A stretch of 64,000 nucleotides of DNA. It comes from an uncultured Oscillospiraceae bacterium. Its GTDB lineage: Bacteria > Bacillota > Clostridia > Oscillospirales > Ruminococcaceae. The notes under the pieces are model-generated. The model was not told the DNA's origin. It worked only from the letters and a program-made list of their open reading frames with translations, and ran no database searches. The position numbers were made by a program, and so were the translations under genes. Numbering within the stretch: the first letter of the stretch is position 1; every line of letters starts with the position of its first letter. Shown piece after piece: positions 4,849-55,029 of this stretch. The DNA is taken from the NCBI GenBank assembly GCA_934462925.1, contig CAKSIT010000012.1, forward strand, positions 1-64,000, read 5' to 3'.

Positions 4849-4858
4849 ACTAATTAAG

Positions 4859-4886
4859 CCGCTTCCCAAAGCGGATTTTTTATTTT
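4859..4886 (+). terminator. Rho-independent terminator after initiator gene
   Basis: CCGCTT (4859-4864) and AAGCGG (4869-4874) form a stem with loop CCCA, followed by ATTTTTTATTTT. It separates the replication gene from the conjugation operon. Confidence 0.85.
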
Positions 4887-4927
4887 ACAGATAAGGCGTT
4901 AAGCCGAATATGAACGGAGGTGAATAT

Positions 4928-4981
4928 ATGTCGGCAACGTTATCTCGAATGATACACTTCAAGCAGGCGGTTCCGCCTTAG
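4928..4981 (+). CDS. 17-residue ORF, possible leader peptide
   Basis: ATG at 4928 follows ACGGAGGTGAATAT, a near-perfect ribosome binding site, and the frame MSATLSRMIHFKQAVPP ends at TAG. It sits after the terminator and immediately before the conjugation operon. It may be a translated leader or the stump of a deleted gene. Its start region shares 11 bases (TATGTCGGCAA) with spacer C1 of the third mini array. Confidence 0.4.
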   Translation: MSATLSRMIHFKQAVPP

Positions 4982-5028
4982 AAATCAGTTCGCCATTGGC
5001 GAATAAAAAACGGAGGTGAAAAAGCAAA

Positions 5029-5496
5029 ATGGCACAAAATGTTGAGAATGACGTAGTAGCTATTGTCGTGAAAACAACAAAAATGACCGCTAACGTACTT
5101 GCGGAAGCTATCAGCGCAACGCTTTCTTCAAAAGGCAAGGCAAAGCATGGCAAGCAGTCGCTTGACAATATCATCAAGGACGGTTCTTCCCTGCAAAATA
5201 TTGAGGTTTCCGACAAGAACATAAAGTCGTTTGAAAGTTCAGCCCGTAAATTCGGGATTGACTATGCCATGAAAAAAGTTCCGAAAGAATCCCCGCCGAG
5301 ATACATTGTGTTCTTTAGGGGCAAGGACACGGAACAGGTTTACAAGGCATTTAACGATTATGCAAAAAAGCATACGCTCGACAAGAGCAAGCCGTCAGTA
5401 ATCAAGGAAATCAGCACTATTGTTCAGGAACAGGCACAGCAGCGCAGCCAACAGCGTGACCGCAGCCGTGTTAAGGAAAGGGGTATGGAGCATTAA
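5029..5496 (+). CDS. PcfB-family (DUF3801) relaxosome accessory protein
   Basis: This 155-residue protein matches the PcfB/DUF3801 family encoded beside VirD4 in Gram-positive conjugative elements: TAKVLAEAI-like N-terminus, SAR-KFGIDYA and IVFFRGKDTEQVYKAFNDY. PcfB is thought to link the relaxase-DNA complex to the coupling protein. The end carries the element-wide tag KPSVIKEISTIVQEQ followed by a Gln/Arg-rich tail. The gene overlaps the following virD4 gene. A palindrome copy (4989-5003) precedes its ribosome binding site ACGGAGGTGAAAAAGC. Confidence 0.85.
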   Translation: MAQNVENDVVAIVVKTTKMTANVLAEAISATLSSKGKAKHGKQSLDNIIKDGSSLQNIEVSDKNIKSFESSARKFGIDYAMKKVPKESPPRYIVFFRGKDTEQVYKAFNDYAKKHTLDKSKPSVIKEISTIVQEQAQQRSQQRDRSRVKERGMEH

Positions 5497-7273: not shown

Positions 7274-7290
7274 CTAGGAGGTAAATCCAA

Positions 7291-7749
7291 ATGTCTATTT
7301 TCAAGAAAATCAACGACGGCGTTAATAGCCTTGCTATCAAGACAATGACCGTCGCAAGCGAAAGCAAACCCCAGAGCAAAAAAGCTCTCAGAGCCAAGAA
7401 AATCCTTACGTCAGTAATCACAGGAGCAATCGCAGCGACTATGTGTGCAGTAACTGTGTTTGCATCAGGAGGCACATCAGGAGGCACATCAGGAGGCGCA
7501 TCAGGAGGCGCATCAATGCCTTCATTTTTCGAAGGAGCTATTGGGGTACTTCAAACAGTTGTAATTCTTATCGGCGCAGGCGTTGCAGTTTGGGGCGTAA
7601 TAAATCTGCTTGAGGGATATTCCAACGATAACCCCGGCGCAAAATCTCAGGGTATGAAGCAGCTAATGGCAGGTATAGGTGTGGCTCTTATCGGTGTTAT
7701 ACTTGTTCCTCAACTTCAAGAATATGTAAAAACAGTTACCAAAACTTAA
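7291..7749 (+). CDS. Maff2-family membrane protein, pilin-like
   Basis: The 152-residue product follows TAACTAGGAGGTAAATCCAA. Residues about 33-52 are a signal-like hydrophobic segment ending near VFASG, followed by four tandem G-G-(T/A)-S units encoded by a 12-base direct repeat (TCAGGAGGCRCA). Two membrane segments follow (VLQTVVILIGAGVAVWGVI; LMAGIGVALIGVILV). This is the Maff2 layout found in ICEs of Clostridia, and by size, two membrane spans and gene order it may play the VirB2 pilin role. The Gly-rich repeat number could vary between relatives. Confidence 0.8.
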   Translation: MSIFKKINDGVNSLAIKTMTVASESKPQSKKALRAKKILTSVITGAIAATMCAVTVFASGGTSGGTSGGASGGASMPSFFEGAIGVLQTVVILIGAGVAVWGVINLLEGYSNDNPGAKSQGMKQLMAGIGVALIGVILVPQLQEYVKTVTKT

Positions 7750-7777
7750 AGAGTATGTGACTTCAAAAGAATTGGAC

Positions 7778-7808
7778 AGGCGGCGAAGAAATGCGCCGCT
7801 TGTAAATT
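7778..7808 (+). terminator. Hairpin after pilin-like gene (attenuator)
   Basis: AGGCGGCG and CGCCGCTT form a stem around AAGAAATG, followed by GTAAATTTTT. It may reduce read-through so that the pilin-like gene is expressed more than the downstream channel genes. Confidence 0.5.
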
Positions 7809-7830
7809 TTTGAAAGGAGGTAAACGACCA

Positions 7831-8895
7831 TTGCTTTTAGAGAAGAAAGAACAGCGAAAAACGCTTTTCCGTAGGCTTATGGTGATTTTTGTTGTAGTCC
7901 TGTTTGCATTTGCATTATGCGGGATAACCGCAGCGGCAGAGGAAACGTCGGACGAACAACCCGCTTTTGAGGACCCGGAACGTTGGGGCTGGCCGTTAGA
8001 CGGAGTCTACGACAGCATAAAGACTTCGCTTTGCGAATTGCTCAACAATATCTTTCAAGGCAGCTTCGGTCTGATAGACAAGGTTGTCAAGGACGCCGAC
8101 GCCGAGCTTGGCAAAACCCCTGCAAACTATGATTCGACGATGTTTCAAACCGTTGAAAAGGTTGTAAACGGTGTCATGATACCCATTGGTTCGATAGTCC
8201 TTGTTTACGTCATTCTCTACGAATTTATTCAGGCATTGATTGACAAGAACAGTTTTCACGACTTTGACACAAGCATTTTCATTCGGTTCATTTTCAAGTC
8301 CTGTCTGGGAATTTGGTTTTTATCCAACTGTTTCACAATCGTAAATGCGCTGTTTGACCTAGGAACATACATGGTAAACGGGGTAACGAGCAGTTCGGGC
8401 GCAGCAGGAACGCTGTCACAAGCTGTCAATTCTTTTGCGGAACACTTGCAGCCTGATAAGGTGTCATTGAGTACGCTTATTCTGATAATCATTCCCGCAG
8501 GCTTTTTGAATATCGTTTCGCTCGTGATTTACGCCTGCGTGTACGTTATCCTTATCGGACGAATGGTTGAGATATATATTCACATTTCGGTTGCCCCCAT
8601 TCCTATGGCAACGCTTACGAATCGTGATTTCGGCGACACGGGTAAAAATTATCTCAAAGTTATTTTTGCGTATGCTCTGCAAGCTGTGTTTATCATGATA
8701 GCAATAGTCCTCTATGCTAATCTGTGTGGAAGCAGGCTGACAGCCGCCTTAACAGATGTGAAAGGCATCGACGCCGCTACATTGGCTTCGGAGATAAATA
8801 ACAACATACTGTTTTGCATAGCTCTGGGTATTGTGCTTTTGCTCACTATGTTCAAATCAGGCAACGTGGCGAAGTCTATACTTAACTGCCATTAA
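7831..8895 (+). CDS. VirB6/TrbL-like polytopic membrane protein
   Basis: The start is TTG at 7831, ten bases after GAAAGGAGG. Residues about 15-35 are a signal peptide or first membrane span (VIFVVVLFAFALCGITAAA). At least five more membrane segments follow, including IPIGSIVLVYVILYEFI, LSTLILIIIPAGFLNIVSLVIYACVYVILI, VIFAYALQAVFIMIAIVLYA and ILFCIALGIVLLLTMF. The central VEIYIHISVAPIPMATL block matches the VirB6/TrbL family, the inner-membrane channel of the type IV system. Gene order between Maff2 and PrgI agrees. Confidence 0.85.
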   Translation: MLLEKKEQRKTLFRRLMVIFVVVLFAFALCGITAAAEETSDEQPAFEDPERWGWPLDGVYDSIKTSLCELLNNIFQGSFGLIDKVVKDADAELGKTPANYDSTMFQTVEKVVNGVMIPIGSIVLVYVILYEFIQALIDKNSFHDFDTSIFIRFIFKSCLGIWFLSNCFTIVNALFDLGTYMVNGVTSSSGAAGTLSQAVNSFAEHLQPDKVSLSTLILIIIPAGFLNIVSLVIYACVYVILIGRMVEIYIHISVAPIPMATLTNRDFGDTGKNYLKVIFAYALQAVFIMIAIVLYANLCGSRLTAALTDVKGIDAATLASEINNNILFCIALGIVLLLTMFKSGNVAKSILNCH

Positions 8896-8933
8896 AATTC
8901 AATTCGCCATTGGCGAATAGGAAAGGAGATAAT

Positions 8934-9374
8934 ATGGCATATATCAAAATTCCCCGTGACCTTAACAACGTCAAGGAGAAGTTCCTGTTTGGTCTTACCA
9001 AAAGACAGGTAATGTATTTTGCTCTGGGCATACTTATCGGGCTTCCGCTTTTTTTCCTAGTCATGCCCGTTGACTTAACGACCGCAGTCGTTATTCTATT
9101 TGTGTGCGTTATGCCGTTTGGCTTTATGGGGCTTTATGAAAAAAACGGGCAGACGTTCGATAAGATACTGACCAACATGATAAAGGCGAATTTGTTCCGC
9201 CCGAAAATCCGACCATATAAATCAGAAAATATTTATGTAGCGTTGGAAGAACAAGCATTTTTGAATAGGGAGGTAAAAAGAATTGGCTACAAGAAAAACT
9301 TCTTCGACAAGCTCGTCGAAAGCCTTGAAAACGCATTCAAGCAGCGCCCAAAAAACAAAAAGCGTAAAAGGTAA
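8934..9374 (+). CDS. PrgI-family membrane protein
   Basis: ATG at 8934 follows AAAGGAGATAAT, a better start than an upstream in-frame codon at 8910. The N-terminus IKIPRDLNNVKEKFLFGLTKRQ is the PrgI/TcpE family signature, then two membrane spans (VMYFALGILIGLPLFFLVM; AVVILFVCVMPFGFMGLY) and a basic C-terminus. PrgI proteins partner VirB4 at the channel. The last 92 bases overlap the start of virB4 in another frame. A palindrome copy (8902-8918) precedes the ribosome binding site. Confidence 0.88.
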   Translation: MAYIKIPRDLNNVKEKFLFGLTKRQVMYFALGILIGLPLFFLVMPVDLTTAVVILFVCVMPFGFMGLYEKNGQTFDKILTNMIKANLFRPKIRPYKSENIYVALEEQAFLNREVKRIGYKKNFFDKLVESLENAFKQRPKNKKRKR

Positions 9375-11769
9375 GGCGCAGTCCGGCAAAGCTGTGTCGA
9401 AAGAAGAAAGGAAAGCTGTATCGCAAAAAATCCGTGCTATTGAGAAGAAGCACAAAACGGTTGACTCCGCTCAAAAGACTATTCCCTATCTGGAGATGTT
9501 CAAGAATGGAGTCTGCCACGTCAACGATGATTATTACACAAAGACGATTTGCTTCAACGATATAAATTATCAGCTTGCGCCCCTTGAGGACCAGCAGATG
9601 ATATTTCAGCATTTTTGTGATATTCACAATTACTTTGACGACAGTCTTACAATTCAGTTCACATATATGAACGTTGCCGATGACGCCGAAACGTACAAAA
9701 GCTGTATTCATATCAATGAACAGGACGATGATTTCAATCATATTCGCCGTGAATTTACCGAAATGCTGAAAGACCAACTTGAAAAAGGCAACAGCGGTCT
9801 TATCCGCTTAAAATACCTGACTTTCGGCATACATGAAAAAGAACGCAAGCAGGCTGTAAGCCGCTTGGAACAGCTTGAGGGTGAGCTTGTGGCGAACTTC
9901 AAGCACATGGGTGTTCAGGCTTATGGACTTGACGGCGCAGAACGCTTACAGGTGCTTCACAGGGCGTTTAACCCGTCTGCAAGCGATAAATTCATCTTCG
10001 ACTGGCACAAACGGGCGCAGACAGGAATGTCCACAAAGGATTTTATCGCTCCCCCCTCTTTCAATTTCGGGCGCAAGAATAAATTCCAGATGGGCGACGT
10101 TATCGGAGCGACCTATTATATCAACGTTATTTCGACTGAAATATCCGACCGTATGTTAATGGACTATCTCAATCTTGACGATAACATCTTCGTTAATCTG
10201 CACTTGCGTTCATGGGAGCAGATGGAAGCTATCAAGTGGGTAAAACTCAAAAACACAGCGGTTGACGCCATGAAAGTCGATGAGCAGAAAAAGGCTGCCC
10301 GTGCAGGATATGATATTGACATACTCCCGCCCGACCTCATGACATATTCTGAGGAAATCAAGGAGATATTACAGCTTTTACAGAGCAGAAATGAACGCTT
10401 CTTTATAACGACTATTACGATAACGGCGTTCGCTTCAAACTCAAAAAAGCTCGATATGCTTATTTCCCAAATCAAGAATATCACGCAGAAACACAACTGT
10501 AAACTTGACCCGCTCGACTGGCAGCAGGAAGAAGCGCTCATGTCCGCAATTCCTCTGGGGTATAACGGCATTGAGCGTAACAGAAACTTCACTACCTCGG
10601 CAGCAGCGGGATTTATTCCCTTTACAACGCAGGAGCTTTTCAATCCGGAGGGCGACTCCCTTTACTATGGGCTTAACGCACTTTCCAACAACCTCATCAT
10701 GGCTGACCGCAAGCAGCTTAAGAATCCCAACGGTATTATCCTCGGAACGCCCGGTTCGGGAAAATCGTTCTCGTCAAAGAGAGAAATATCTAATGCGTTC
10801 TTAACAACGAACGACGATATTATCATCTGCGACCCTGAGGGCGAATATTATCCGCTTGTCAATGCTCTGCATGGACAGCTCGTAAAGATTTCGCCCAATT
10901 CTCCCCACCATATCAATCCTATGGATATTTCAACGGATTATTCCGATGATGATGACCCTGTAACGCTCAAATCCGACTTTATCCTTTCACTGTGCGAACT
11001 TGTTATCGGCGGCAAATACGGTCTATCGGCTAACGAGCGTTCAGTTATCGACCGTTGTGTCGGCAAGATTTACGCAGATTATTTCAAAGACCCCGTTCCT
11101 GAAAAAATGCCTATCCTTGAGGATTTGTATAAAATGCTCCGTGCCGCACCGGAGGAATGCGCAGCTAATGTAGCTTCGGCATTGGAGCTTTATGTTACGG
11201 GTTCGCTGAACATTTTCAATAACCGCACAAACGTTGACATAAAGAACAGACTGGTCTGCTTCGACATTAAGGAGCTAGGCAAAAACCTCCGTAAGCTCGG
11301 AATGCTTATCGTTCAAGACCAAGTATGGAACAGAGTTACTGAGAACCGTAACAACCGTAAAGCAACCCGTTATTACATTGACGAGTTCCATTTGCTTCTG
11401 AAAGAAGAACAGACGGCAGCATATTCCGTTGAAATCTGGAAGCGTTTCCGCAAATGGGGCGGTATTCCGACAGGTATGACTCAGAACGTAAAGGATTTAC
11501 TGGCTTCAAAGGAAATCGAGAATATCTTTGATAACTCCGATTTTATCCTTATGTTAAACCAAGCCGCAGGCGACAGAGAGATACTTGCGCAGAAGCTCGG
11601 CATATCTCCCTCGCAGCTCGGCTATGTCAAGAACGCTCCGCAGGGTTCGGGACTTCTTTTCTTCGGAGATGTTATCCTGCCGTTCGTTGACCACTTCCCG
11701 AAGGACACCGAGCTTTACAGAGTAATGACAACTAAGCCCGAAGAACAGCAGCAACAGCCGCAGGCGTGA
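9283..11769 (+). CDS. VirB4/TraE-type conjugation ATPase
   Basis: The 828-residue protein starts with TTG at 9283 after TAGGGAGGTAAAAAGAA. The N-terminal 60 residues are Ser/Lys-rich, then the TraC/VirB4 N-terminal domain begins at SAQKTIPYLEMFKNGVCHV. Walker A is GTPGSGKSFSS near residue 488; Walker B and TraG motifs follow (RYYIDEFHLLL; GIPTGMTQNVKDLL; NSDFILMLNQAAGD). VirB4 powers channel assembly and substrate transfer at the membrane. Confidence 0.93.
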   Translation: MATRKTSSTSSSKALKTHSSSAQKTKSVKGKAQSGKAVSKEERKAVSQKIRAIEKKHKTVDSAQKTIPYLEMFKNGVCHVNDDYYTKTICFNDINYQLAPLEDQQMIFQHFCDIHNYFDDSLTIQFTYMNVADDAETYKSCIHINEQDDDFNHIRREFTEMLKDQLEKGNSGLIRLKYLTFGIHEKERKQAVSRLEQLEGELVANFKHMGVQAYGLDGAERLQVLHRAFNPSASDKFIFDWHKRAQTGMSTKDFIAPPSFNFGRKNKFQMGDVIGATYYINVISTEISDRMLMDYLNLDDNIFVNLHLRSWEQMEAIKWVKLKNTAVDAMKVDEQKKAARAGYDIDILPPDLMTYSEEIKEILQLLQSRNERFFITTITITAFASNSKKLDMLISQIKNITQKHNCKLDPLDWQQEEALMSAIPLGYNGIERNRNFTTSAAAGFIPFTTQELFNPEGDSLYYGLNALSNNLIMADRKQLKNPNGIILGTPGSGKSFSSKREISNAFLTTNDDIIICDPEGEYYPLVNALHGQLVKISPNSPHHINPMDISTDYSDDDDPVTLKSDFILSLCELVIGGKYGLSANERSVIDRCVGKIYADYFKDPVPEKMPILEDLYKMLRAAPEECAANVASALELYVTGSLNIFNNRTNVDIKNRLVCFDIKELGKNLRKLGMLIVQDQVWNRVTENRNNRKATRYYIDEFHLLLKEEQTAAYSVEIWKRFRKWGGIPTGMTQNVKDLLASKEIENIFDNSDFILMLNQAAGDREILAQKLGISPSQLGYVKNAPQGSGLLFFGDVILPFVDHFPKDTELYRVMTTKPEEQQQQPQA

Positions 11770-11801
11770 TATGACTTTCCGATGAATGGGGGTGAGAAAA
11801 T

Positions 11802-14800
11802 ATGTCGGACGTCAAAAATACAAGCACTCTGAACCGGAAAGGCAGTTCATCGGAGCGTATGCAAAGCCCTCACGCTCATCAGTCCAATCAGACAACGCAC
11901 ATTTCGCAATCTGATAGAGCTAAAGAAATTTATTCGTTGGACGTGAAAGAACGTACAGCCATGGCTCGTAAAGGAGAAAATCTTGATATTCTTATACACG
12001 ATAGCTGCACCATGGTGCGCAGAGAAGTCGCTTTGCGGGGATATAACCTTGATGAATTGGCTAAAGACAGTTCTAATATCGTTCGAGAAGCCGTTGCGAG
12101 ATGTGGATACGAATCATCAGCTGCTCTTATCGGTAATTCAGGGATTGTCAGGCAAGCGGCAGCCGAAGCCGAGAAGAATTTCAGCCATGAAAGGTCAAAG
12201 ACTTCAGGAAAAATGTCTGATATAATTGAGAAACTTGACAGCGTAAACAGCAAGCTCGACAAATTCGATACAGCAAAATCAACGCATAGAGTGCGTATGT
12301 ACACGGAATACGACTCAAACAGGGTTCATGTTGCTGTGGACACAACAAAGATGAGCCGTGAGCAATACGCTCAGCATAAGCACGATAACCGTGGGCTGCT
12401 GCATAAGATTGACAGCCATTTTCAGAATGCAAATGTGGGGTTGGTTTATGCAAAAGTACGCAGTCCATTAACTTATGGCGATGATGGCAAACGACATTTG
12501 CAATCTCCGATTACCATGCACAGCCTTAGTCCGCCGAAAATATTACAGCAAGCAGGAAACAAAGGGTGGAACATAGCCCTAAAAGCGGAAGCGGGGTTAT
12601 TCAGATATGGCGATACCGCCAAAAGGTTGATTATTGACCCTGCTTCACAGGCTGCAAGAGTTGCCGTACTCAATGAACTATATCGGGCGAGCAAAGAAAA
12701 TATCGGCATAGATATGATTTCAAAGGGTGCTAGAGCAGGACTTACAGTAGCACGGGGCGTTATGAACTATCGCAGGGACATGATTGCCTACAAGCCAGTT
12801 CGGCTTGAAAACAAACGTGACAAGCTGCTTAAAAGGGGCGAGAAAATAAAGCTCAATGCGGCGACTTATCACAGCAAGGAGCTGTTCTATGCAGCCAATG
12901 AAAGAGCAAAATCGTTTGGCTTAAAGCGTTCGGGCAGAAAATCAAAGCCTGCGTTCAAAGGCGCATGGACGAAAATATATGACGGTTCACAACACAAGGG
13001 TTATCTCCAAGCTCCTGAAAAGGCTCATCTCGATAAAAGCTCTATGCCCAAGACCGAGTTCAAACACCAAAAGAAAATGAACAGGCTTGAGCGCAAAGAG
13101 TTCAAGATGAACAAAAAGGCTTATAGCACTGTCAAGGTCAAGCAGAAATACTTTAATGCTTCAACGGGAAAATTCCAAACCAAGACCGTTAAAATGGTGG
13201 ATAAGTCGAAGCTAAAGAAGCCTAAAGTCAAAAAGCCTGATTCTCTTGCAGTTCGTCCCGCTCTTGCGGGACTAGGCGCACTGCGAAATAAAGCCTTTAA
13301 CGAACTGTCGCAAAGTGATAATGTCGCTGTTCAGGCAGTGGGCAAAAGTGCGAATGCTGCTTTCAGCGAGTTTTCGAGAATGCGTGCTTCTTCCCTGAAG
13401 AAGAAAAATCAGCTTTACGAAAAGCGAGTGAATAAGGCTCGAATGAAAGCTGAAAAGACAGGCGCAAAGTTGGAAGTCGAGAAAAACAAATCTCCGTTTT
13501 CCGAGAAAAGCTCCAAAAAGGCGAATAAAAAGAAAGCGCAGAAAAAGCAGCTCCGCAAAAAGCGCAACGCTGAAATGTTCAAGCAGAACATGAAAAAGGC
13601 AGCTAAAAAGGCTAGAGATGAGATTGCAAGAAAGGAGGCTGATTTCATTGCCGGAAAGGGCAAGTTCATTGCTTTAGGCGTTCTAGGCTTTATTTTAATG
13701 ATGATGGCTCCCATGATTTTCCTCATGATGATGGGCGGCGGTGGCGGCGGCGTTCTGGGCGGAGCTACGGCGTTATCCGTATATCCTGTCGATAACAAAA
13801 CGCTTACCGACTCGCTTCTGAGCTATAATGACGAGCTTGACAATTTCTACAATGAGTGTGTAACTTATGTGCAGGGATTGCAGGTTGCAAATGGCAGGAC
13901 TATCAGCACAAAGGATAAAATCTATGGCGGCGTGTCTTTCAATTTTTCAGGGATTAAGGCGTCGTTCAGATACGACATTTTCAAACTAGCTTCATACCTA
14001 TCTGCAAAATACCGAAACGACTGGAGCAGTGCGCAGGAAGAGTGCAGACAGCTTGTCAGAATGTTGTTTAAGATTGACTGCGTTGAAGGAAATGGCGACC
14101 ATATTCACAGAGAATGGAAAGCTCAAATCGGTTCAACGAGGGACGGCGACCCGATATACACCACCATGACAATGGATATTTACAACTTCTATATTTACCC
14201 GCAAGACGGCGTATCTATTGACGAGTTCATCACTGAGCAGCTATCCAACATGGGTGAAGTTACCGAGGACGGCAAGACGAATTATGAGCTGCATTATGAG
14301 CTGCTCATGGAGTCGGACGGCGGTCATCAGAAAATCGGAACGCCTTTGCCCGGCTTTGACTATTGGACGAGAAGCTCACAGACTTCAATTTATGAGCATA
14401 TTCCACCAAATCAGCAAGATACTTTTGACAACTGTATCGGTATTGCTTGCGGAAGTGGGCAATCGGTAACTGCCGGCGGTGATGGCGTTATCACAAACAT
14501 AGGAGATAACTCCATTACTATTGAATATGAGGATTTTGTTGTAACATATTACGGAGATGTATCATCAACACAACTTGGAAAAGGAAGTGTTGTAAGCGAC
14601 GGCGATATTCTGTTCACGACCGCAGAGGTATCAGAGGACAGCGAAAACCCGTACAACTTACAAATTTCGGTATATGATAATTCTGTCGGCTCGTATGTCA
14701 ATCCCGCCTTTGTAATGGAAGGCTATGAGGGACAAATGGAGGACAATAAAAGGCGGCAGGACGAAGCAAATCAACAGCCAACGGAAGAAACGCCGACGGA

Positions 14801-14804
14801 GTAA
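11802..14804 (+). CDS. CD1108-type conjugation protein with degenerate M23-like end
   Basis: The 1000-residue protein has three parts. Residues about 45-130 are short helical repeats (RREVALRGYNLDELAKDSSNIVREAV style). About 130-620 is a long, very Lys-rich cytoplasmic region. A single membrane span (FIALGVLGFILMMMAPMIFLMMM, about 625-650) leads to an extracellular region with Gly run, a helical domain, and a C-terminal beta-rich stretch (GGDGVITNIGDNSITIEY...YYGDV) that has the shape of an M23 peptidase. The usual His-Asp-HxH zinc ligands are not present. Relatives are cell-wall hydrolase or VirB8/VirB1-like channel parts. Here it is probably structural. Confidence 0.75.
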   Translation: MSDVKNTSTLNRKGSSSERMQSPHAHQSNQTTHISQSDRAKEIYSLDVKERTAMARKGENLDILIHDSCTMVRREVALRGYNLDELAKDSSNIVREAVARCGYESSAALIGNSGIVRQAAAEAEKNFSHERSKTSGKMSDIIEKLDSVNSKLDKFDTAKSTHRVRMYTEYDSNRVHVAVDTTKMSREQYAQHKHDNRGLLHKIDSHFQNANVGLVYAKVRSPLTYGDDGKRHLQSPITMHSLSPPKILQQAGNKGWNIALKAEAGLFRYGDTAKRLIIDPASQAARVAVLNELYRASKENIGIDMISKGARAGLTVARGVMNYRRDMIAYKPVRLENKRDKLLKRGEKIKLNAATYHSKELFYAANERAKSFGLKRSGRKSKPAFKGAWTKIYDGSQHKGYLQAPEKAHLDKSSMPKTEFKHQKKMNRLERKEFKMNKKAYSTVKVKQKYFNASTGKFQTKTVKMVDKSKLKKPKVKKPDSLAVRPALAGLGALRNKAFNELSQSDNVAVQAVGKSANAAFSEFSRMRASSLKKKNQLYEKRVNKARMKAEKTGAKLEVEKNKSPFSEKSSKKANKKKAQKKQLRKKRNAEMFKQNMKKAAKKARDEIARKEADFIAGKGKFIALGVLGFILMMMAPMIFLMMMGGGGGGVLGGATALSVYPVDNKTLTDSLLSYNDELDNFYNECVTYVQGLQVANGRTISTKDKIYGGVSFNFSGIKASFRYDIFKLASYLSAKYRNDWSSAQEECRQLVRMLFKIDCVEGNGDHIHREWKAQIGSTRDGDPIYTTMTMDIYNFYIYPQDGVSIDEFITEQLSNMGEVTEDGKTNYELHYELLMESDGGHQKIGTPLPGFDYWTRSSQTSIYEHIPPNQQDTFDNCIGIACGSGQSVTAGGDGVITNIGDNSITIEYEDFVVTYYGDVSSTQLGKGSVVSDGDILFTTAEVSEDSENPYNLQISVYDNSVGSYVNPAFVMEGYEGQMEDNKRRQDEANQQPTEETPTE

Positions 14805-14820
14805 CAGGAGGTACGATTAT

Positions 14821-15048
14821 ATGTCAAAAGACATTGATTTCGATAAAGAAATTCAACTCTGCAACGAGCAGATTGCGAAATATCGCAGAAAAAGGCAGGA
14901 GCTTGAACGCAAAAGACAGGAAGCTGAAAACGAGAAGATTGTTTCTATCGTCAGAAGTCACAAGCTCTCTGTGCAGGAACTCACTGAATTTGTCACCGCT
15001 TTTGCGAGTGATAAGAAACCTATAAGTAAGGAGAGCAGCAATGTATAA
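14821..15048 (+). CDS. DUF4315 family coiled-coil protein
   Basis: ATG at 14821 follows AACAGGAGGTACGATTAT. The 75-residue product (MSKDIDFDKEIQLCNEQIAKYRRK...) is one charged coiled coil followed by a small helical tail, matching DUF4315, which is regularly encoded between the CD1108 and CD1107 type genes of ICEs. The role is unknown. Its end overlaps the next gene by 8 bases. Confidence 0.85.
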   Translation: MSKDIDFDKEIQLCNEQIAKYRRKRQELERKRQEAENEKIVSIVRSHKLSVQELTEFVTAFASDKKPISKESSNV

Positions 15049-16198
15049 CAGCATTAAGAAAACATCGGTTATTATAGCGGCAGCGGCTTTTATGAGCATT
15101 TCATGCTGCGTGTCGGCTTCTGCCGTCGGTAATCCGACGAACACAACGTCCGTTCCGACATATTCCACGTCAGTAAACGGCGAGGATACAGTACCGTTTG
15201 AAATGAGCAATCCCTATGAAGCGGGGCTAATGGACGGCGACGACCTTAACAGCTATGCTGAAAACTATCTCAACGAGGGCGCACAGGCAGATTTAAGCGG
15301 AACGTCAATCAGCAGAAACGACGCAAGGGTCACTTCCGCAACCACAAAAAAGAGCAATACGGTCAAGTCGGAAACGACAAGCGCAGACGTCACAAGCGGC
15401 GGTGAAAACACCTCCGCTCCCGCAGTTACTTCTGCGCCGTCGGGAAGTACGACCACTTCAATTACTACTCCCGAATGGCTTGACAGCCCTTATTCGGACG
15501 GAATGCTTTCGGACGATGAGCTATACAACAGAGTGATGGACTTTCTGGACGACGGCACAAACCTTAACACCGAGGGAAGCGGTATGCTTATCGGCGAAGA
15601 TATAATCAATCCCGAAAAGAAAGAAGAAACTGATACAACGTCGGAAGCTGAAACCTATACATCTGGCGAAAAAGTAATGTATACGGTAGCCGCAAGCGAC
15701 GGCAGCGTTTTCTACATTATCATTGACAAGGGCAGCAACGGTCAGAACGTGTATTTCCTTAACACGGTTGACATTGTTGACCTTGCTTCGCTGATTAACT
15801 CTGAATCTGAAAATCTGACCGCACAGGAAAAGGCTATTCTTAACAAAGCGAATGTTACAACGGTATCGGGCGACGAGGAACAAGACCCCGAAGCCGAAAG
15901 CCCGGATAATACCACGGCGAACAATTCAGGCTCGGCAAATTCGGGCAATAAGCCGTCCGGCTCTGCCGGAACGACCACAGCCAAAAAAGACGATACTATG
16001 CTCTACATAATCGTCGGCGGTGGCGCAGTTATTGCAATAGGTATCGGTTGGTACTTCAAAATCGGACCCGGCAAGAAGAAAAAGGCTTCATTTGACGAAG
16101 AAGATGAGGAGGACGAGGAAGAACAGCCGGAAGAATACTATGACGAGGAGGAAACCGAAGAAGAAGCCCCGACAGAAGAAGCCTATGAGGACGAATAA
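15041..16198 (+). CDS. CD1107/DUF4366 surface protein
   Basis: The 385-residue protein has an N-terminal signal peptide (TSVIIAAAAFMSISCCVSASA), a Thr/Ser-rich extracellular region with two similar NPYEAGLMDGDDL / SPYSDGMLSDDEL units, and a globular part around residues 205-260. A C-terminal membrane span (MLYIIVGGGAVIAIGIGWYF) is followed by a strongly acidic Glu/Asp tail in the cytoplasm. This is the DUF4366 (CD1107) layout, a conserved mating-channel surface protein. It closes the channel operon; a palindrome copy overlaps its stop codon and a terminator follows. Confidence 0.85.
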   Translation: MYNSIKKTSVIIAAAAFMSISCCVSASAVGNPTNTTSVPTYSTSVNGEDTVPFEMSNPYEAGLMDGDDLNSYAENYLNEGAQADLSGTSISRNDARVTSATTKKSNTVKSETTSADVTSGGENTSAPAVTSAPSGSTTTSITTPEWLDSPYSDGMLSDDELYNRVMDFLDDGTNLNTEGSGMLIGEDIINPEKKEETDTTSEAETYTSGEKVMYTVAASDGSVFYIIIDKGSNGQNVYFLNTVDIVDLASLINSESENLTAQEKAILNKANVTTVSGDEEQDPEAESPDNTTANNSGSANSGNKPSGSAGTTTAKKDDTMLYIIVGGGAVIAIGIGWYFKIGPGKKKKASFDEEDEEDEEEQPEEYYDEEETEEEAPTEEAYEDE

Positions 16199-39337: not shown

Positions 39338-39338
39338 A

Positions 39339-41525: not shown

Positions 41526-41975
41526 TCAGAACGGGTAATCATCGTCGTCTGCACTCATTCTGTTAAGGTCATTAACGAGGTCGGCATAATTCTCAGACTC
41601 GGCGAGAGAGGAGTGAGGAGCTTCTGTGTTTTCTGAATCAGTGCTGTCCTTATCAGTAGTCTTGTTTCCAGTAAAGTAAATGTGTTCGGCAGCGATTTCT
41701 GTCGCTATACGCTGATTCCCTTTCTTATCCGTGTATTTCCTTGTGCGGAGCTTTCCGTCAAGTGCAGCGAGCTGTCCTTTTTGGAAGTGGGTTGAAATGA
41801 ACTCCGCAAATTTGTTCCACGCAATGACATTGAAGAAGTCTGTTGCGTATTCACCGTTCTCGTCCTTAAAGTCACGAGAAACTGCAAGAGTAAAGCGGCA
41901 TACGGTGTAGTTTTCACCTGTGAATACTTCGGGGTCTGCCACAAAACGCCCCATAAGCTGTACATTATTAAGCAT
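41526..41975 (-). CDS. ssb: Single-stranded DNA-binding protein
   Basis: The 149-residue protein has the complete OB fold (LMGRFVADPEVFTGENYTVCRFTLAVSRDF ... FFNVIAWNKFAEFISTHFQKGQLAALDGKLRTRKY) and the acidic C-terminal tip DDDDYPF that binds partner proteins. Its start follows CAGAAAGGACATTAT. ICE-borne SSB coats transferred or replicating single strands. A palindrome copy lies at 42022-42040, upstream of it, after array A. Confidence 0.95.
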   Translation of the reverse strand: MLNNVQLMGRFVADPEVFTGENYTVCRFTLAVSRDFKDENGEYATDFFNVIAWNKFAEFISTHFQKGQLAALDGKLRTRKYTDKKGNQRIATEIAAEHIYFTGNKTTDKDSTDSENTEAPHSSLAESENYADLVNDLNRMSADDDDYPF

Positions 41976-42087: not shown

Positions 42088-42256
42088 GTTTTCATTCTGT
42101 GCAAAACTGTAGAGGTCTAAAACTGATTGGATTTTTTCTATTGCTGGACTCTGTGCTTTCGTCATGTGCAAAACTGTAGAGGTCTAAAACATAGTTTAAA
42201 TCAATCCTTTCTGTCAGCTCGCTTTCGTCATGTGCAAAACTGTAGAGTTCTAAAAC
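42088..42256 (-). CRISPR. Mini CRISPR array A (3 repeats, 2 spacers)
   Basis: Three 36-nt repeats lie at 42221-42256 (leader-proximal), 42155-42190, and 42088-42123 (degenerate at its distal end). Spacers are 42191-42220 (A1, 30 nt) and 42124-42154 (A2, 31 nt). Read on the minus strand a repeat starts GTTTTAGACCTCTACAG and ends CACATGACGAAAGC next to the spacer; the leader-proximal copy has GTTTTAGAAC instead of GTTTTAGACC. Spacer A1 reads AGAAAGGATTGATTTAAAC then TAT, like a ribosome binding site and start region. The array lies between the 177-residue gene and ssb. Confidence 0.88.
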
Positions 42257-42390
42257 CCCAAACCACATAACAACACATAACGTCCGTGCGGATTTTCATG
42301 CACGGAGCTTATACCTTCCCGTGAGTAAAGCCTACGTCGCAAGCGACGGTTTACGGCTACTATCACGGTCTTAGGCTGCAAAGTCAGCCC
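42257..42390 (-). ncRNA. tracr-like leader element, copy A
   Basis: A 134-nt block, almost identical to the blocks at 43144-43276 and 44835-44968, is contiguous with the first repeat. On the minus strand it predicts GGCTG/GCAGCC at the 5' end, a nested stem (CCGTGA ... TCACGG around AGCC ... GGCT around CGTCGC-TT-GCGACG), and a hairpin CCGTGC ... GCACGG. CGTTATGTGT follows and can pair with the repeat segment near CACATGACG. It looks like a tracrRNA or scaffold fused in cis to the guides. In this copy the block is followed by ACTATCAC rather than ACTGTCAC. Confidence 0.72.
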
Positions 42391-42403
42391 TTATATACGG
42401 TTA

Positions 42404-42937
42404 TTACAGTTCTACTGAGTGGGATTTCTTGACTGCCGGTTCGCTCTGGGTTCGGGACTGTTCCGATTTAATATTGTTCAGCTCTGAAAGAACAGATTTT
42501 CTTTCGTTTATTTCTTCTTTGGGGGGCATTTTTTCAAGTGCAATCTTGTTTTCCTGCACGTCTACGTCAATATCTCCTATTAACGTAAAATATGAAAGTC
42601 CAAAACTTTTCGGGTGTACATCTCCGTTAATGGTGTCGCTTTCGTAATTCTCTATTTCTTCGATTTCTTCGATGGTTTTCTTTTCGTACTGTTCAATGGG
42701 TTCGCCGAAATCGCCGTTCAGAAAATCAACCTCATCAAAAGAAGTGTCGCTGTTCTGAATACGCAGTTTTTCAACAATGTCGTTAAACGTTTCTCCATGG
42801 AGGTCGCCATAGAGGTTGACATCACCCCAACAACCAGAGGGAGCAGTATCAGGCGCATACCACTTATCGCCGAAATTAAGCAAAATGTGGCGTGTTCCCT
42901 CGACTTCCTGAATGTACATTTTAGCTTTGTTGTCCAT
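42404..42937 (-). CDS. Tagged acidic protein between arrays A and B (177 aa)
   Basis: ATG at 42937 follows AAAGGACGTAAC. The product (MDNKAKMYIQEVEGTRHILLNFGDKWYAPDTAPSGCWGDV...) has a small beta-rich N-terminal domain and a very acidic middle (EKKTIEEIEEIENYESDTINGD), and ends with the tag KSVLSELNNIKSEQ. No family is recognised. Placement between two guide arrays and the tag suggest a protein sent to the recipient, perhaps a DNA-mimic type inhibitor, but this is inference. Confidence 0.65.
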   Translation of the reverse strand: MDNKAKMYIQEVEGTRHILLNFGDKWYAPDTAPSGCWGDVNLYGDLHGETFNDIVEKLRIQNSDTSFDEVDFLNGDFGEPIEQYEKKTIEEIEEIENYESDTINGDVHPKSFGLSYFTLIGDIDVDVQENKIALEKMPPKEEINERKSVLSELNNIKSEQSRTQSEPAVKKSHSVEL

Positions 42938-43025: not shown

Positions 43026-43042
43026 AGCATACCTGCTTCATC

Positions 43043-43143
43043 GCTTTCGTCATGTGTAAAACTGTAGAGGTCTAAAACTTCTGCTCTTTGCACAAATTGG
43101 AGGGACAGCTTTCGTCATGTGTAAAAACATAGAGTTCTAAAAC
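43043..43143 (-). CRISPR. Mini CRISPR array B (2 repeats, 1 spacer)
   Basis: Repeats lie at 43108-43143 (leader-proximal, GTTTTAGAAC form) and 43043-43078. Spacer B1 is 43079-43107 (29 nt). A further guide could be read from the sequence after the second repeat, without a closing repeat. On the plus strand spacer B1 contains AAATTGGAGGGACA, a strong ribosome-binding-site-like stretch. The array lies between the Cas12f-like gene and the 177-residue gene. Confidence 0.88.
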
Positions 43144-43276
43144 TCAAACCACATAACAACACATAACGTCCGTGCGGATTTTCATGCACGGAGCTTATAC
43201 CTTCCCGTGAGTAAAGCCTACGTCGCAAGCGACGGTTTACGGCTACTGTCACGGTCTTAGGCTGCAAAGTCAGCCC
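43144..43276 (-). ncRNA. tracr-like leader element, copy B
   Basis: A 133-nt copy of the structured block, one base shorter next to the repeat. It begins a few bases downstream of the stop of the Cas12f-like gene, with a decayed palindrome copy (43280-43296) between. Confidence 0.72.
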
Positions 43277-43295
43277 GTTATTCGCCATTAGCAAA

Positions 43296-44648
43296 TCAAT
43301 CATTATTTTCCGTGTTTGCTTTCAGCAGCTCGTCAATATCTTCTATAACAAGTGCCTTGGGTATATTGTAATCTATGTCAAAAGCCTGTCCGCAGCAGGT
43401 GCATATATCATACACCATTCCGTCATCTGTTTTCTTGCGTTCAACGGTAGGAGCTTTGCATTCGCTGCACCATTTGCGCAGACCCTTGTAACCGACCTTA
43501 ACGACCTTGATACCAAATTCCTTTGCCTTATACTCAATCTTGCCGATAAGGTCGTAATAAGACCAGTTTTTAAGAAGCGTACTGCGTTCAAGTTCCTCGG
43601 AAGCAAGTCCATTTAAGTCCTCTATCTGAATAACCCCACATTTGTTTGCAACTGCCCAGTTTACAATCTGCCGTGAATAACGGTGATTTGTGGTGTTCCG
43701 AAAATTAGAAATCTTATTGCTTATATGATTCAAAGGCTCCATTTTTTTACGATAGCCATGTCCTACTCTGCCGTCGCCGCAAAGGACAGAATGCTTGGAA
43801 CTTGCCATGCCGATGTTCCGTCTGCGCCGTTCTATCTGTGTTGCAAAAGCGAGAACTTCACCGCCGTCAATCGTGTACTTTTTTGGTTTATGGCTAAAAG
43901 TACAGATAACCGCATTATGTTCTGCGATATGAACGCCCATTATATTTTTCATCTGTTCTTTGCTCGGTTCTGTCTTTGGCTTGTCGAAAGAGTAACAGAG
44001 CAGTAAGTACCACTTTCCGTTGTCGTATTTTATTTTGCTTCCCGCAATGCTGTATACTTCATCATAGCAGCGTTCAAGAATAGTTCTTACGCTTCCTGCT
44101 GATTTTGCAGGAACAATAGCCTTAAATATGAGCGAACCTGTCGAAAGGTTATATTCTTTCTTTGCAGCTCTTGAAAACAAGCTAAGTTCAAATATCCATT
44201 CTTTAACTCCGCCGTTTTCGTCCTTGTCGCATTGAAGTTTAATGCTGTTCTTATGCAGCTCAATGGGGATATTGCTTTTATATGAGGGAATAGACACGTT
44301 ACCACGCAGTATATCGCCCTTTATGGCATTAAATCTGCCGCACACTCCTTGGCTTAACATTGAAAGATTACCAGTATTCATACTGGGAGCGTCCTCTTTG
44401 ATACGATTGTAAATAACCGTAGAAAGCGATTTCCCAAGAATTTCTTTGTTTTCTTCACGGGTAGGGTATTCACCGTGTTTTTTCTTCCAGTCACTTTCAA
44501 AGCCGCTGTATTCCCAACACAATTGAATACATCTGTTGGCGGCAGTTCTTGTTTCTCGCTGAAGTTCCCAAAGCAGTTTATTTACTTCTTTATACTCAAG
44601 TACATCATCATTCTTTGAAATAAGTTGAATTTTTGTCGTTTTTGTCAT
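43296..44648 (-). CDS. cas12f: Cas12f-like protein with inactivated RuvC-I site
   Basis: The 450-residue protein follows the Cas12f1 plan: helical N-terminal half, PSYKSNIPIELHKNSIKL, DGGEVLAFATQIERRRR, the basic stretch VGHGYRKKMEPL, and NHRYSRQIVNWA. RuvC-II is IQIEDLNGL (E343), the zinc ribbon is C394xxC397 with C416xxC419, and RuvC-III is FDIDYNIPKAL (D426). RuvC-I, normally GVDLG, reads MGVHIAEHN: the catalytic Asp is His240 (codon CAT at 43931-43929). The nuclease should be dead while guide and DNA binding may remain. No TnpA, IS end, cas1 or cas2 is present. ATG follows GCGAGGATAATAAA, just downstream of array C, so array and gene share a transcript. Confidence 0.88.
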   Translation of the reverse strand: MTKTTKIQLISKNDDVLEYKEVNKLLWELQRETRTAANRCIQLCWEYSGFESDWKKKHGEYPTREENKEILGKSLSTVIYNRIKEDAPSMNTGNLSMLSQGVCGRFNAIKGDILRGNVSIPSYKSNIPIELHKNSIKLQCDKDENGGVKEWIFELSLFSRAAKKEYNLSTGSLIFKAIVPAKSAGSVRTILERCYDEVYSIAGSKIKYDNGKWYLLLCYSFDKPKTEPSKEQMKNIMGVHIAEHNAVICTFSHKPKKYTIDGGEVLAFATQIERRRRNIGMASSKHSVLCGDGRVGHGYRKKMEPLNHISNKISNFRNTTNHRYSRQIVNWAVANKCGVIQIEDLNGLASEELERSTLLKNWSYYDLIGKIEYKAKEFGIKVVKVGYKGLRKWCSECKAPTVERKKTDDGMVYDICTCCGQAFDIDYNIPKALVIEDIDELLKANTENND

Positions 44649-44665
44649 TTTATTATCCTCGCTTT

Positions 44666-44834
44666 ATTTTCATTATGCGCAAAAATGTAGAGGTCTAAAA
44701 CAAGAGAGAGGTTTATACTATGACTACAACACGCTTTCGTCATGTGTAAAAACATAGAGGTCTAAAACCTCACGCTTTGCCGACATACGGTACACCCCGC
44801 TTTCGTCATGTGTAAAAACATAGAGTTCTAAAAC
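44666..44834 (-). CRISPR. Mini CRISPR array C (3 repeats, 2 spacers)
   Basis: Repeats lie at 44799-44834 (leader-proximal), 44733-44768, and 44666-44701 (degenerate). Spacers are 44769-44798 (C1, 30 nt) and 44702-44732 (C2, 31 nt). As transcribed, C1 contains GGGGTGTACCGT then ATG-TCG-GCA-AAG-CGT-GAG, an apparent ribosome binding site, start codon and five codons. C2 on the opposite strand contains AGAGAGG, TTTATACT, then ATG-ACT-ACA-ACA. The degenerate last repeat ends 18 bases before the Cas12f-like start codon. Confidence 0.9.
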
Positions 44835-44968
44835 CCCAAACCACATAACAACACATAACGTCTGTGCGGATTTTCATGCACGGAGCTTATACCTTCCCGT
44901 GAGTAAAGCCTACGTCGCAAGCGACGGTTTACGGCTACTGTCACGGTCTTAGGCTGCAAAGTCAGCCC
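44835..44968 (-). ncRNA. tracr-like leader element, copy C
   Basis: A 134-nt copy of the structured block, differing from copy A at only a few bases (for example CGTCTGTG for CGTCCGTG on the plus strand). It starts close after the stop of the regulator gene at 44997, with a palindrome copy (44972-44988) between. Confidence 0.72.
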
Positions 44969-44996
44969 GTTATTCGCCATTGGCGAATTGTTCATA

Positions 44997-45500
44997 TCAT
45001 TTATGATTTTCATTATGCTCAGCTGCTTCCAAACAGTCAAAGCACCGTCCGTCTGCCGCCCCGTCATCAATGTATTTGCCACATATGGGGCAGTTATGCC
45101 AGAACGTTGATTTTGCGGGAACTGATGAAATACTTGTGCAGGGATTGTCCACCTCTGTAATATCCGCAATCATTTCGAGCATTTCGCAGTTAGACACTCG
45201 GTGTTTAACAGCATACCTGACACTATCCCGAAAACGCTGTATCGCTCGTCCCTTGCAGTCGATAATCAAATTGTAATCCTTGTCATACTCGCCGTACATT
45301 GCAAGCCTATGGTATATTTTGCAGCCATTTGTAGGCTTAATTCCAAGTTCCCTTGCAAATTTACGGGAATCGGGCAGAATACACAAATTATCGGGTAACG
45401 TTCCAGATTCAATGTAATCAACCATTTGAGATACAACCTGTTCAACCACGCTGGGCTTCCTTAAAGTTTTGTCAATCTTAATCAGGTCTTTTAATTCCAT
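44997..45500 (-). CDS. GntR-like winged-helix protein with zinc ribbon
   Basis: Residues about 20-80 resemble a GntR-type winged helix (VVEQVVSQMVDYIESGTLPDN ... LPDSRKFARELGIKPTNGCKIYHRL). The C-terminal 45 residues hold CPICGKYI ... CFDCL, a zinc ribbon. ATG at 45500 lies 14 bases after AAGGAG; a GTG at 45515 overlaps that site and is less likely. It sits directly upstream of array C and the Cas12f-like gene in the same direction, so it is the best candidate for a regulator or partner of that system. Confidence 0.7.
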   Translation of the reverse strand: MELKDLIKIDKTLRKPSVVEQVVSQMVDYIESGTLPDNLCILPDSRKFARELGIKPTNGCKIYHRLAMYGEYDKDYNLIIDCKGRAIQRFRDSVRYAVKHRVSNCEMLEMIADITEVDNPCTSISSVPAKSTFWHNCPICGKYIDDGAADGRCFDCLEAAEHNENHK

Positions 45501-45590
45501 TGGCTTATTTTTCACTCCTTGTGTAACATTTGAACAGTCCCCAAAATAGAGGACTACTCTATGTTTCCTTGACGAACTTGATAATCAAGT

Positions 45591-50057: not shown

Positions 50058-51434
50058 TTATGTAAGGTTGTCCGTCTTGGATTTATCGAGGTTCGGCTCG
50101 GTCTTTGCAAGATTTTCAAGACTTGCCTTGAGCTTTTCGACCTCAGTAATCTCTTTCTTAATATCTCTGTATTGCTGCATAAGTTCGCCTTTCTTTTCTT
50201 TCAGGAAAGCTCTCTGGTTTTCCAAATCCGAAACAGCAGGAAGTCTGCCGTTCTCATTGAGCAATCCCTGAACATTTTTCTTCGCTACCTGATATAGCAG
50301 AAGCTCTTGTTCATGCTCACGGAAGAACTTGTCCTTGTTCTTCGCACCATTGTATTTCTGATTGACCTCTTTGGTTTCGTGATAGGTCTGAAGCTGTTTG
50401 ATTTGCAACGACAAATCAGTCATTTGTGCTTCGACCTGTTTGATTTCGTCCTGAATGTCAAGTCGTTCATCGTAAAGGTCAATCTGCTTTGCCCGAACCT
50501 GTTCGGGACTGTCGAAGCCACGCTCTGACAGCTCGTTAATGAGCTTGGAAGCGTTCTTCATGTTTTGGAGCATAGCCCAACGCTTCAAGCCCTCGTTTTC
50601 TTCAACCTTGCCCTCAATAGCAATAAACCGTTGACCTCGTGGAATATATCTGTATTCCCGCGAGGTTTTTTGTCTTTCACGCCACATAAGGCGGCGTTCA
50701 ATGCGGTATCGTATCTGTTCCTCGGTATAGTAATAGCCGAGTGTTTTAGCACGGGTAAAGCGTTCCTGACCTTTGGCACGGAACGCTATATGTTTTCCGT
50801 GTTTTATCTCATAGTCAAGGGCTTTCATTCTTTCGAGGAAATCATCGAAACTTGAAGCATATTTAATGCACTCGTCAATGGAGATTTTCAGCTTCGCTTT
50901 CCAACTGTTGCCCGCTCGTTCCTGCTCCCATTCGTAACGGCTCTTACCCTTTCCACGTTCGGGGTTGCTGATAACGGATAGCCCATATTCTCTGCACAGT
51001 TCGTCGCTGATATTCCGTATATTCTGCCATGCAGGATTATTCTTTCGGTCATGCTCTGTGCTGAACGATTTTCCCGTTTCAAAGTTTACGGCATTTATGA
51101 TAATATGATTATGAATATGTTCCTTATCGACGTGAGTTGAAAGCACATATTCATACTGACCGCCGAGCAGTTTTTGCGCAAGTTTAACTCCCAGTTCATG
51201 CGCCTGCTCTGGAGTAGCTTCTCCCGGTGAAAAAGACTGTATCAGATGAAAGGCAAGATTCTTTCCCTTATAGCCGTTTGCTGTTTGAGTTTTCAGCATT
51301 TCTTCCGCAGCGACCCTCACCGTGCAGGCGTATCCCTCGACATATTTCTGCTCCTCGGTTTTGTTCGGTTTTACGATATAGGCTATTGCAAGATTTAGGG
51401 TAGATTCGATAGAATGGATTTTTGTAATTGCCAT
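50058..51434 (-). CDS. MOBP-type relaxase
   Basis: The 458-residue relaxase nicks oriT and leads the strand into the recipient. H101-V-D-x-x-H106-I-H108-N-H110 forms the metal site (STHVDKEHIHNHIIINA). Y19 in LAIAYI is a candidate nucleophile region, and FHLIQSFSPGEATPEQAHELG is a conserved MobA/MobL block. After residue 240 it is basic and coiled coil. The end does not carry the element tag. The start overlaps mobC by 40 bases and lacks a strong ribosome binding site, so translation is probably coupled. Confidence 0.93.
   Translation of the reverse strand: MAITKIHSIESTLNLAIAYIVKPNKTEEQKYVEGYACTVRVAAEEMLKTQTANGYKGKNLAFHLIQSFSPGEATPEQAHELGVKLAQKLLGGQYEYVLSTHVDKEHIHNHIIINAVNFETGKSFSTEHDRKNNPAWQNIRNISDELCREYGLSVISNPERGKGKSRYEWEQERAGNSWKAKLKISIDECIKYASSFDDFLERMKALDYEIKHGKHIAFRAKGQERFTRAKTLGYYYTEEQIRYRIERRLMWRERQKTSREYRYIPRGQRFIAIEGKVEENEGLKRWAMLQNMKNASKLINELSERGFDSPEQVRAKQIDLYDERLDIQDEIKQVEAQMTDLSLQIKQLQTYHETKEVNQKYNGAKNKDKFFREHEQELLLYQVAKKNVQGLLNENGRLPAVSDLENQRAFLKEKKGELMQQYRDIKKEITEVEKLKASLENLAKTEPNLDKSKTDNLT

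Positions 51435-53364: not shown

Positions 53365-55029
<1,665 letters not shown>

Follow-up and report, generated by a model that had tools for sequence, protein, structure and literature searches.

Comparison with known systems

AsCas12f1 from Acidibacillus sulfuroxidans (type V-F1; PDB 8j12, 7wju and 8dzj) is a Cas12f effector of the clustered regularly interspaced short palindromic repeats (CRISPR) systems. It has D225 in its RuvC site and cuts, and its 169-nt trans-activating CRISPR RNA (tracrRNA), with an anti-repeat, lies between the gene and the array (PMC8548392). Here we describe a Cas12f-like gene from an uncultured Oscillospiraceae bacterium (GCA_934462925.1, contig CAKSIT010000012.1, positions 1 to 64,000 of the forward strand; this whole stretch of 64,000 nucleotides is called the window), whose closest solved relative is AsCas12f1. 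The layout of the window locus is much like that of AsCas12f1, but its protein has a histidine at the place of D225, and three predicted tracrRNA cassettes lie between the genes. The locus is probably a nuclease-dead V-F CRISPR system, carried by an integrative and conjugative element (ICE), which silences integrative mobilizable elements (IMEs) by guided DNA binding and not by cutting.

Other inactive relatives have been described. Cas12m (type V-M, the former V-U1) includes natural H-D-D and N-D-D variants, which bind and silence without cutting (PMC11013384). However, Cas12m is another subtype of about 600 aa, while the window protein has 450 aa, is closest to Cas12f1 and goes with a tracrRNA; it lies outside the V-U1 lineage, the Cas12u1 model reaching 15.6 bits on it against 311.7 for Cas12f. 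The sigma-linked dCas12f of Bacteroidota (PDB 9n9c and 9n9m) is also a dead Cas12f relative, shorter and from a different lineage. The protein of one locus that we collected (L035), whose gene follows an extracytoplasmic function (ECF) sigma gene, matches 9n9c at E 6.5e-187, and 9n9c itself presumably comes from a sigma-linked system. Unlike this group, the window protein keeps E343 and the zinc ribbon and has CRISPR arrays; it is not C-terminally short, the neighbours scanned gave no sigma-factor match, and no shared partner was seen.

TldR proteins are derived from TnpB and take their guide from an omega-RNA-like flank, without a CRISPR array. They are likewise nuclease-dead guided repressors on mobile elements, with flagellin targets in PMC13418256. 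An initial annotation of the window had compared the protein with TldR, which holds for the function but not for the family, since the window protein is an array-linked Cas12f closest to Cas12f1 and the targets known for it are other mobile elements. The conjugative plasmid of Actinomyces that carries Cas12b3 likewise combines an inactivated Cas12 with a mini CRISPR array; Cas12b3 belongs to the V-B lineage and, unlike for the window system, neither a target nor dispersed cassettes are mentioned in the part of PMC12669027 that deals with it.

The window protein and its RuvC site

The protein is encoded as follows.

43296..44648, minus strand: cas12f-like gene, 450 aa; RuvC-I Asp replaced by His (H240), E343 and D426 kept, zinc ribbon intact

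By profile, sequence and fold it is a Cas12f1 relative. The PADLOC Cas12f models match it at 2.3e-93, NCBIfam guided_TnpB matches above its own cut-off, and the top solved relatives by sequence are AsCas12f1 chains (E about 3e-83). With an AlphaFold2 model (mean predicted local distance difference test, pLDDT, 87.6; predicted template modelling score, pTM, 0.61), the best Foldseek match is AsCas12f1 again (E 3.7e-40, 36% identity in the structural match). The RuvC-I segment reads IMGVHIAEH, with codon CAT for His240 in the DNA, and His240 is aligned to the Asp of ‘imgidlg’ in AsCas12f1 or to the Ala of its dead mutants. As the dead AsCas12f1 of PMC8548392 is D225A, the residue facing His240 is D225. 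RuvC-II reads VIQIEDL, with E343, RuvC-III contains D426, and the four ribbon cysteines (C394/C397 and C416/C419) are all there. Thus the open reading frame (ORF) and its Cas12f assignment, the GVHIA motif, the two remaining acidic residues and the CxxC/CxxC ribbon are as the initial annotation had reported them. Two of the checks that it proposed, a fold model compared with solved structures and a look for H240 in close homologues, were carried out and bore it out as well.

A homologue search in 5.8 billion proteins gave 243 matches, and the best 120 of them were analyzed. In the 56 closest proteins (the first is identical to the window protein) the RuvC-I column holds His in 55 and Asn in one, and GVHIA is also encoded in two further assembled genomes (L001 and L002); therefore, His240 is no one-off sequencing error. 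The 53 His-group rows that can be read at both later sites keep E343 throughout (53 of 53), D426 in 41 (the others are nine Asn, two Glu and one Ala, with the Ala row P0053 and the Asn row P0054 poorly aligned here) and N428 in 19. In contrast, D240, E343, D426 and N428 are kept in 44 of 44 Asp homologues among the best 120. P0053 is a 739-aa database protein in which a His-clade Cas12f part stands together with precomputed PF01051 and PF21205, which we take to be replication-initiator domains; it may be an assembly or frame artefact.

A quick tree was built for 115 of the 120 proteins (five outside 390-500 aa were dropped), with midpoint root and support by the Shimodaira-Hasegawa-like approximate likelihood ratio test (SH-aLRT), without bootstrap. 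In this tree 51 His rows and one Asn row form one clade (SH-aLRT 99), nested in a side of 58 rows without Asp (H 51, F 4, V 1, Y 1, N 1; SH-aLRT 98). Judged by the tree, the RuvC-I substitution is a character of the clade. Other Cas12f relatives without the RuvC-I Asp were found in loci L004, L006 and L007 (Phe), L008 (Thr) and L017 (Asn).

The proteins of L001 and L002 are 81% identical, with nonsynonymous divergence (dN) 0.11, synonymous divergence (dS) 3.7, which is saturated, and dN/dS near 0.03; 47% of third codon positions are changed, compared with 12% of first and second positions. From this low dN relative to dS, and from changes falling mostly on third positions, we infer that the dead Cas12f protein is under purifying selection.

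As for type V-F, the window locus has the Cas12f effector grouping, the array and, by sequence and covariation, the tracrRNA with anti-repeat, but its RuvC site is H-E-D and not D-E-D. Because of this site, and because His is found in 55 of the 56 close proteins, the window system is on sequence grounds an inactivated V-F variant rather than a V-F nuclease.

Predicted guide-RNA cassettes

Three cassettes, which the initial annotation overlooked together with their targets, flank cas12f on the minus strand (42088-44969). Each consists of a predicted tracrRNA of about 135 nt abutting a 36-nt repeat and a mini array; in total there are eight repeats, some of them degenerate, and five spacers. Cassette A spans 44969-44666 (two spacers), B 43277-43043 (one) and C 42391-42088 (two). 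The order, all on the same strand, is orf172, A, cas12f, B, orf177, C, ssb.

44835..44969, minus: cassette A predicted tracrRNA, directly abutting repeat 1 (covariance model match 44845-44969)
44799..44834, minus: cassette A repeat 1, 36 nt
44769..44798, minus: spacer A1, matches IME DUF3987 gene
44733..44768, minus: cassette A repeat 2
44702..44732, minus: spacer A2, matches ribosome-binding site (RBS) and start codon of IME HTH_17 gene
44666..44701, minus: cassette A last repeat, degenerate, running into the cas12f leader
43144..43277, minus: cassette B predicted tracrRNA copy
43108..43143, minus: cassette B repeat 1
43079..43107, minus: spacer B1, no target found
43043..43078, minus: cassette B repeat 2
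42257..42391, minus: cassette C predicted tracrRNA copy
42221..42256, minus: cassette C repeat 1
42191..42220, minus: spacer C1, no target found
42155..42190, minus: cassette C repeat 2
42124..42154, minus: spacer C2, no target found
42088..42123, minus: cassette C last repeat, degenerate

The repeat pattern was seen in none of 100 shuffled windows. Similar cassettes occur in L001 (five, one of them directly before a phage-type single-stranded DNA-binding gene) and in L002 (two, flanking its cas12f gene). The ten copies with their first repeats from the three loci fit one structure with 42 consensus pairs, in 17 of which both sides are changed in at least one row (compensatory changes). Two of these 17 pairs fall in the ten-pair helix between the 3' end of the tracrRNA and the repeat (repeat:anti-repeat); for example, the window has CGUUAUGUG/CACAUGACG where L001 has CGUUACGCG/CGCGUGAUG.

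For the tracr part by itself, a covariance model was built from the copies of the window, L001 and L002, so that these match by construction (three in the window, five in L087, which is a stretch of L001, and two in L089). At E≤1e-3, one copy each was found in 10 of 10 Asp-type loci with a match, while among the relatives lacking the Asp L007 has two, L008 two and L017 five. Two or more copies thus occur in six of the eight loci that lack the RuvC-I Asp versus none of ten Asp loci (Fisher one-sided 0.0015), a trend and not a test of cause, because the loci are related and unequal in length. Not counted in this tally are six Asp loci without a model match (L013, L015, L018, L019, L020 and L058), the duplicate stretch L091 and L090, which is untyped. 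Little sequence follows the first copy in L006, and the contig end truncates one copy in L008; in L011 and L071 a second match was seen at E above 0.01.

Some further features of the cassettes were observed. The first repeat of each cassette (44834, 43143 and 42256) reads GTTTTAGAACTC, and the later repeats read GTTTTAGACCTC. A short palindrome, ATTCGCCATTGGCGAAT, stands at 42985, 43280 (degenerate) and 44972, the cassette/gene borders of the operon. By eye, a cassette of L007 directly precedes a ParA-like reading frame. The cassette C repeat (42088-42256) has its first 17 bases in common with the repeat of a Cas9 locus in genome G527 (26/36 overall) and shares 25/36 positions with the repeat of a Cas13d locus in G134 (L119 7450-8500 and L120 8100-9200 were examined); by this resemblance, host adaptation machinery might recognise it.

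Spacer targets

The targets of cassette A were found in other genomes. An A1-repeat-A2 query, whose ends are the outer spacer borders while the inner borders are free, matched 26 of 297 genomes at E≤0.05. At E≤1e-3 there are 14 places: ten on A2 (in nine genomes), two on A1 and two crossing borders. In a search of 394 genomes with window positions 42040-45020, where both ends of A2 are free, A2 (query 289-319) was matched in G065 (94%, E 2.2e-5) and G182 (87%).

The ten elements from nine genomes are of one kind. DUF3987 followed by a 98-aa-type HTH_17 gene is found in 10/10, a Mob_Pre relaxase (MobV-like, below NCBI's cut-off) in 8/10, the other two loci ending before it, and a tyrosine integrase in all three loci that are long enough. 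Because of this gene content, we infer that the targeted elements are IMEs. Their identity to the G065 element is 73-91% for DUF3987, 60-93% for HTH_17 and 30-93% for the integrase and mobilisation proteins.

Spacer A2 fits 9/10 elements, six without gap at 27-29/31 and three with one inserted base, and is weak in L125. Spacer A1 fits 8/10 elements at 23-27/30; it is weaker in L123, and L127 lacks the region. The A1 site falls in the early part of DUF3987, on its coding strand; the three mismatches of the two best copies are all at third codon positions. The A2 site follows about 1.35 kb beyond A1, on the opposite strand, and covers the RBS and ATG of HTH_17. In one IME copy of G065 (L117 2979-4435), DUF3987 is divided between two reading frames, the break lying at the A1 site.

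The published protospacer adjacent motifs (PAMs) of V-F effectors are TTC and YTTN (PMC8548392). The four bases 5' of the A2 sites are TTCT or TTTT (TTYT) in 10/10, and those 5' of the A1 sites are TTCG in 6/9. The flanks of these two targeted spacers are suggestive of a T-rich 5' PAM, mostly TTYN.

Other searches gave no target. The 297 genomes searched with A1-repeat-A2 hold one place each at E≤1e-3 for the C array and the B array, neither confined to a spacer. Within the window, a second ungapped match of any spacer has at most 21 matching bases (four best per spacer), and the four IME proteins have no tblastn match at E 1e-5. No convincing protospacer was found in phage and plasmid records: one weak phage match runs from the end of C1 into a repeat, and the sole plasmid match is inside the cas12f gene. 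In IMG/VR, nothing was found with exact 20-base seeds of A1, B1, C1 and C2, nor with two degenerate patterns (A2 and A1 targets) and one repeat pattern. B1 and C1 have weak partial matches in other genomes, which were discounted: their ends do not coincide with spacer borders, and those inspected lie in unrelated reading frames. Array matches in G527 and G134 proved to be Cas9 and Cas13d arrays. The L001 array stretches have no spacer-bounded match at E≤1e-3 outside their own genome. Another 21 spacers (ten from L001, two from L002 and nine from L004, L006, L007 and L008; the spacer-cutting pattern yielded none from L017) matched the collected loci no better than shuffled ones.

Proposed function and its alternatives

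The cutting residue is lost, guide cassettes are present, and two of the five spacers fall on one element family; for these reasons silencing by DNA binding is the likely function. In the proposed process the cassettes would be transcribed, and the tracrRNA would fold onto the adjoining repeat to give a natural single-guide-like RNA. The Cas12f-RNA complex would then bind IME DNA beside a 5' T-rich PAM and act as a roadblock to transcription of DUF3987, HTH_17 and the downstream mobilisation genes, and the IME would thereby be kept from exploiting the ICE. IMEs depend on the conjugation machinery of another element, so the ICE would gain by silencing them, on the assumption that the targeted IMEs ride this very ICE.

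There is precedent for such a mode of action. The H-D-D Cas12m bind without dsDNA (double-stranded DNA) cleavage, act as a roadblock and repress transcription (PMC11013384), and the 2025 classification describes inactivated V-C and V-M effectors that block transcription (PMC12669027). The initial annotation had proposed that the protein binds but does not cut; the near-fixed His, the drift of RuvC-III under purifying selection and the conserved guide RNA with targets argue for this. Published work agrees with it in part: in AsCas12f1 the change of the RuvC Asp abolishes cleavage (PMC8548392), and H-D-D Cas12m bind dsDNA without cutting, although D-E-D Cas12m do not cut it either (PMC11013384).

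Several points weigh against silencing by a dead effector. D-E-D Cas12m are also without dsDNA cleavage (PMC11013384), so the Cas12m precedent speaks for feasibility and not for the effect of the His. The invariant E343 and the D426 kept in most members may allow residual metal binding. The protospacers are all imperfect (best ungapped A2 29/31, A1 27/30), three of the nine A1 flanks are not TTCG (TTTC, CTCT and TAGC), and an A1 match was not listed in the 394-genome search, in which two candidates were scored per genome. No target was found in the 297 genomes for B1, C1 and C2, three of the five window spacers, nor for the L001 spacers, of which eight of ten were searched in 295 genomes and five in 200. 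No Rfam family matches the tracr segment, and cassette A alone folds modestly better than shuffles (z -1.9, 7/200 as good).

The spacers without target leave room for host genes as targets, and the cassettes directly precede operon genes (cas12f, orf177 and ssb), so that a TldR-like guided regulator of the ICE's own or host genes, not directed against foreign elements, may be considered. This is unlikely, as both assigned spacers fall on one element family, the spacers and the IME proteins lack the in-window matches mentioned above, and spacers vary between the window, L001 and L002, whereas a regulatory guide would be fixed. It is very unlikely that the dead Cas12f activates transcription of its targets through a recruited partner such as a sigma factor or regulator, in the manner of the sigma-linked dCas12f of Bacteroidota. 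Upstream of its dead Cas12f, L001 encodes a protein that combines sigma-70 region 4 with an RNA polymerase alpha C-terminal domain (L087 78-818), and the co-oriented orf172 of the window is a possible regulator by weak similarity. However, no protein like that of L087 was seen among the window proteins scanned, nor a sigma-factor match among the window neighbours scanned, and no partner gene is common to the window, L001 and L002 among the neighbours inspected, for which reason we set the idea aside. In addition, proteins of the sigma-linked family (L035, 9n9c) stop short of the C-terminal zinc ribbon, with L035 24% identical, and the sites over an RBS and start codon (A2) and inside a gene (A1) speak against activation.

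An active nuclease, in which His240 or another residue completes the metal site, is given a still smaller chance: E343 in 53/53 rows and D426 in 41/53 would fit it, but the Asp homologues keep D-E-D and DxN without exception, and it is in the His clade that D426 and N428 drift. The loss of AsCas12f1 cleavage on the RuvC Asp change also speaks against it, as do the H-D-D Cas12m, though D-E-D Cas12m behave likewise. A decaying, functionless CRISPR remnant is the least probable of all and is largely refuted by selection, clade, RNA covariation and targets. The last repeats are degenerate, the arrays are very short, and the scan of window proteins, which covered part of the ORFs, gave no adaptation gene; against these stand the dN/dS of L001 versus L002 (near 0.03, where dS is saturated), the divergence within a clade of 52 long proteins, compensatory RNA changes and spacers with real targets.

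The ICE and neighbouring genes

The genes around the cas12f locus are listed below.

44997..45515, minus: orf172, co-oriented gene upstream, 172 aa; weak winged-helix regulator similarity, below cut-offs; not a conserved partner
42404..42937, minus: orf177, co-oriented gene between B and C, 177 aa; no family
41526..41975, minus: ssb, single-strand binding protein gene just after cassette C
3784..16198, plus: ICE transfer genes (DUF6017, type IV secretion system coupling protein, TrbL/VirB6, TraG P-loop ATPase, M23 peptidase, CD1107-like)
50058..51434, minus: ICE relaxase, MobA/VirD2 type
53386..55029, plus: large serine recombinase, presumably of the ICE

Conjugation genes, relaxase and large serine recombinase agree with the ICE setting given in the initial annotation, and genes for topoisomerase, ParA, ParB and SSB are also present. 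By gene content the window is an ICE with unmapped ends. L001 lies in a conjugative element too, with homologues of the window coupling protein and TraG-type ATPase.

Other genes were observed in the window: a phage minor capsid protein gene (1304-3190) left of a tRNA-Gln (3341) and the transfer genes, a predicted protein with a phage MuF C-terminal domain and a GGDEF domain (26377-28350), an AbiEii-like nucleotidyltransferase gene within the ICE (39327-39857), and a WYL-domain protein gene right of the serine recombinase (59130-60170).

Implications

Type V-F itself is known; what is new here is an inactivated V-F variant with dispersed guide cassettes. Among the papers listed in searches of openly licensed literature, none deals with a natural dead Cas12f in ICEs or with IME-directed Cas12f spacers, which is not proof of absence. 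With somewhat better than even chances, the locus represents an undescribed ICE-borne immunity, in which a dead Cas12f and scattered self-contained tracrRNA-repeat guides make up a CRISPR interference (CRISPRi) arsenal against parasitic IMEs, aimed at DUF3987 and the start codon of the next gene.

The comparison of loci suggests that nuclease loss goes with multiplied guide cassettes. The locus offers base-exact testable targets and a miniature Cas12f whose His is the natural variant of a whole clade, and its natural single-guide-like RNAs could inform small repression tools. If the proposed function is true, it would be a natural CRISPRi derived from a compact nuclease and used in the conflict of conjugative and mobilizable elements.
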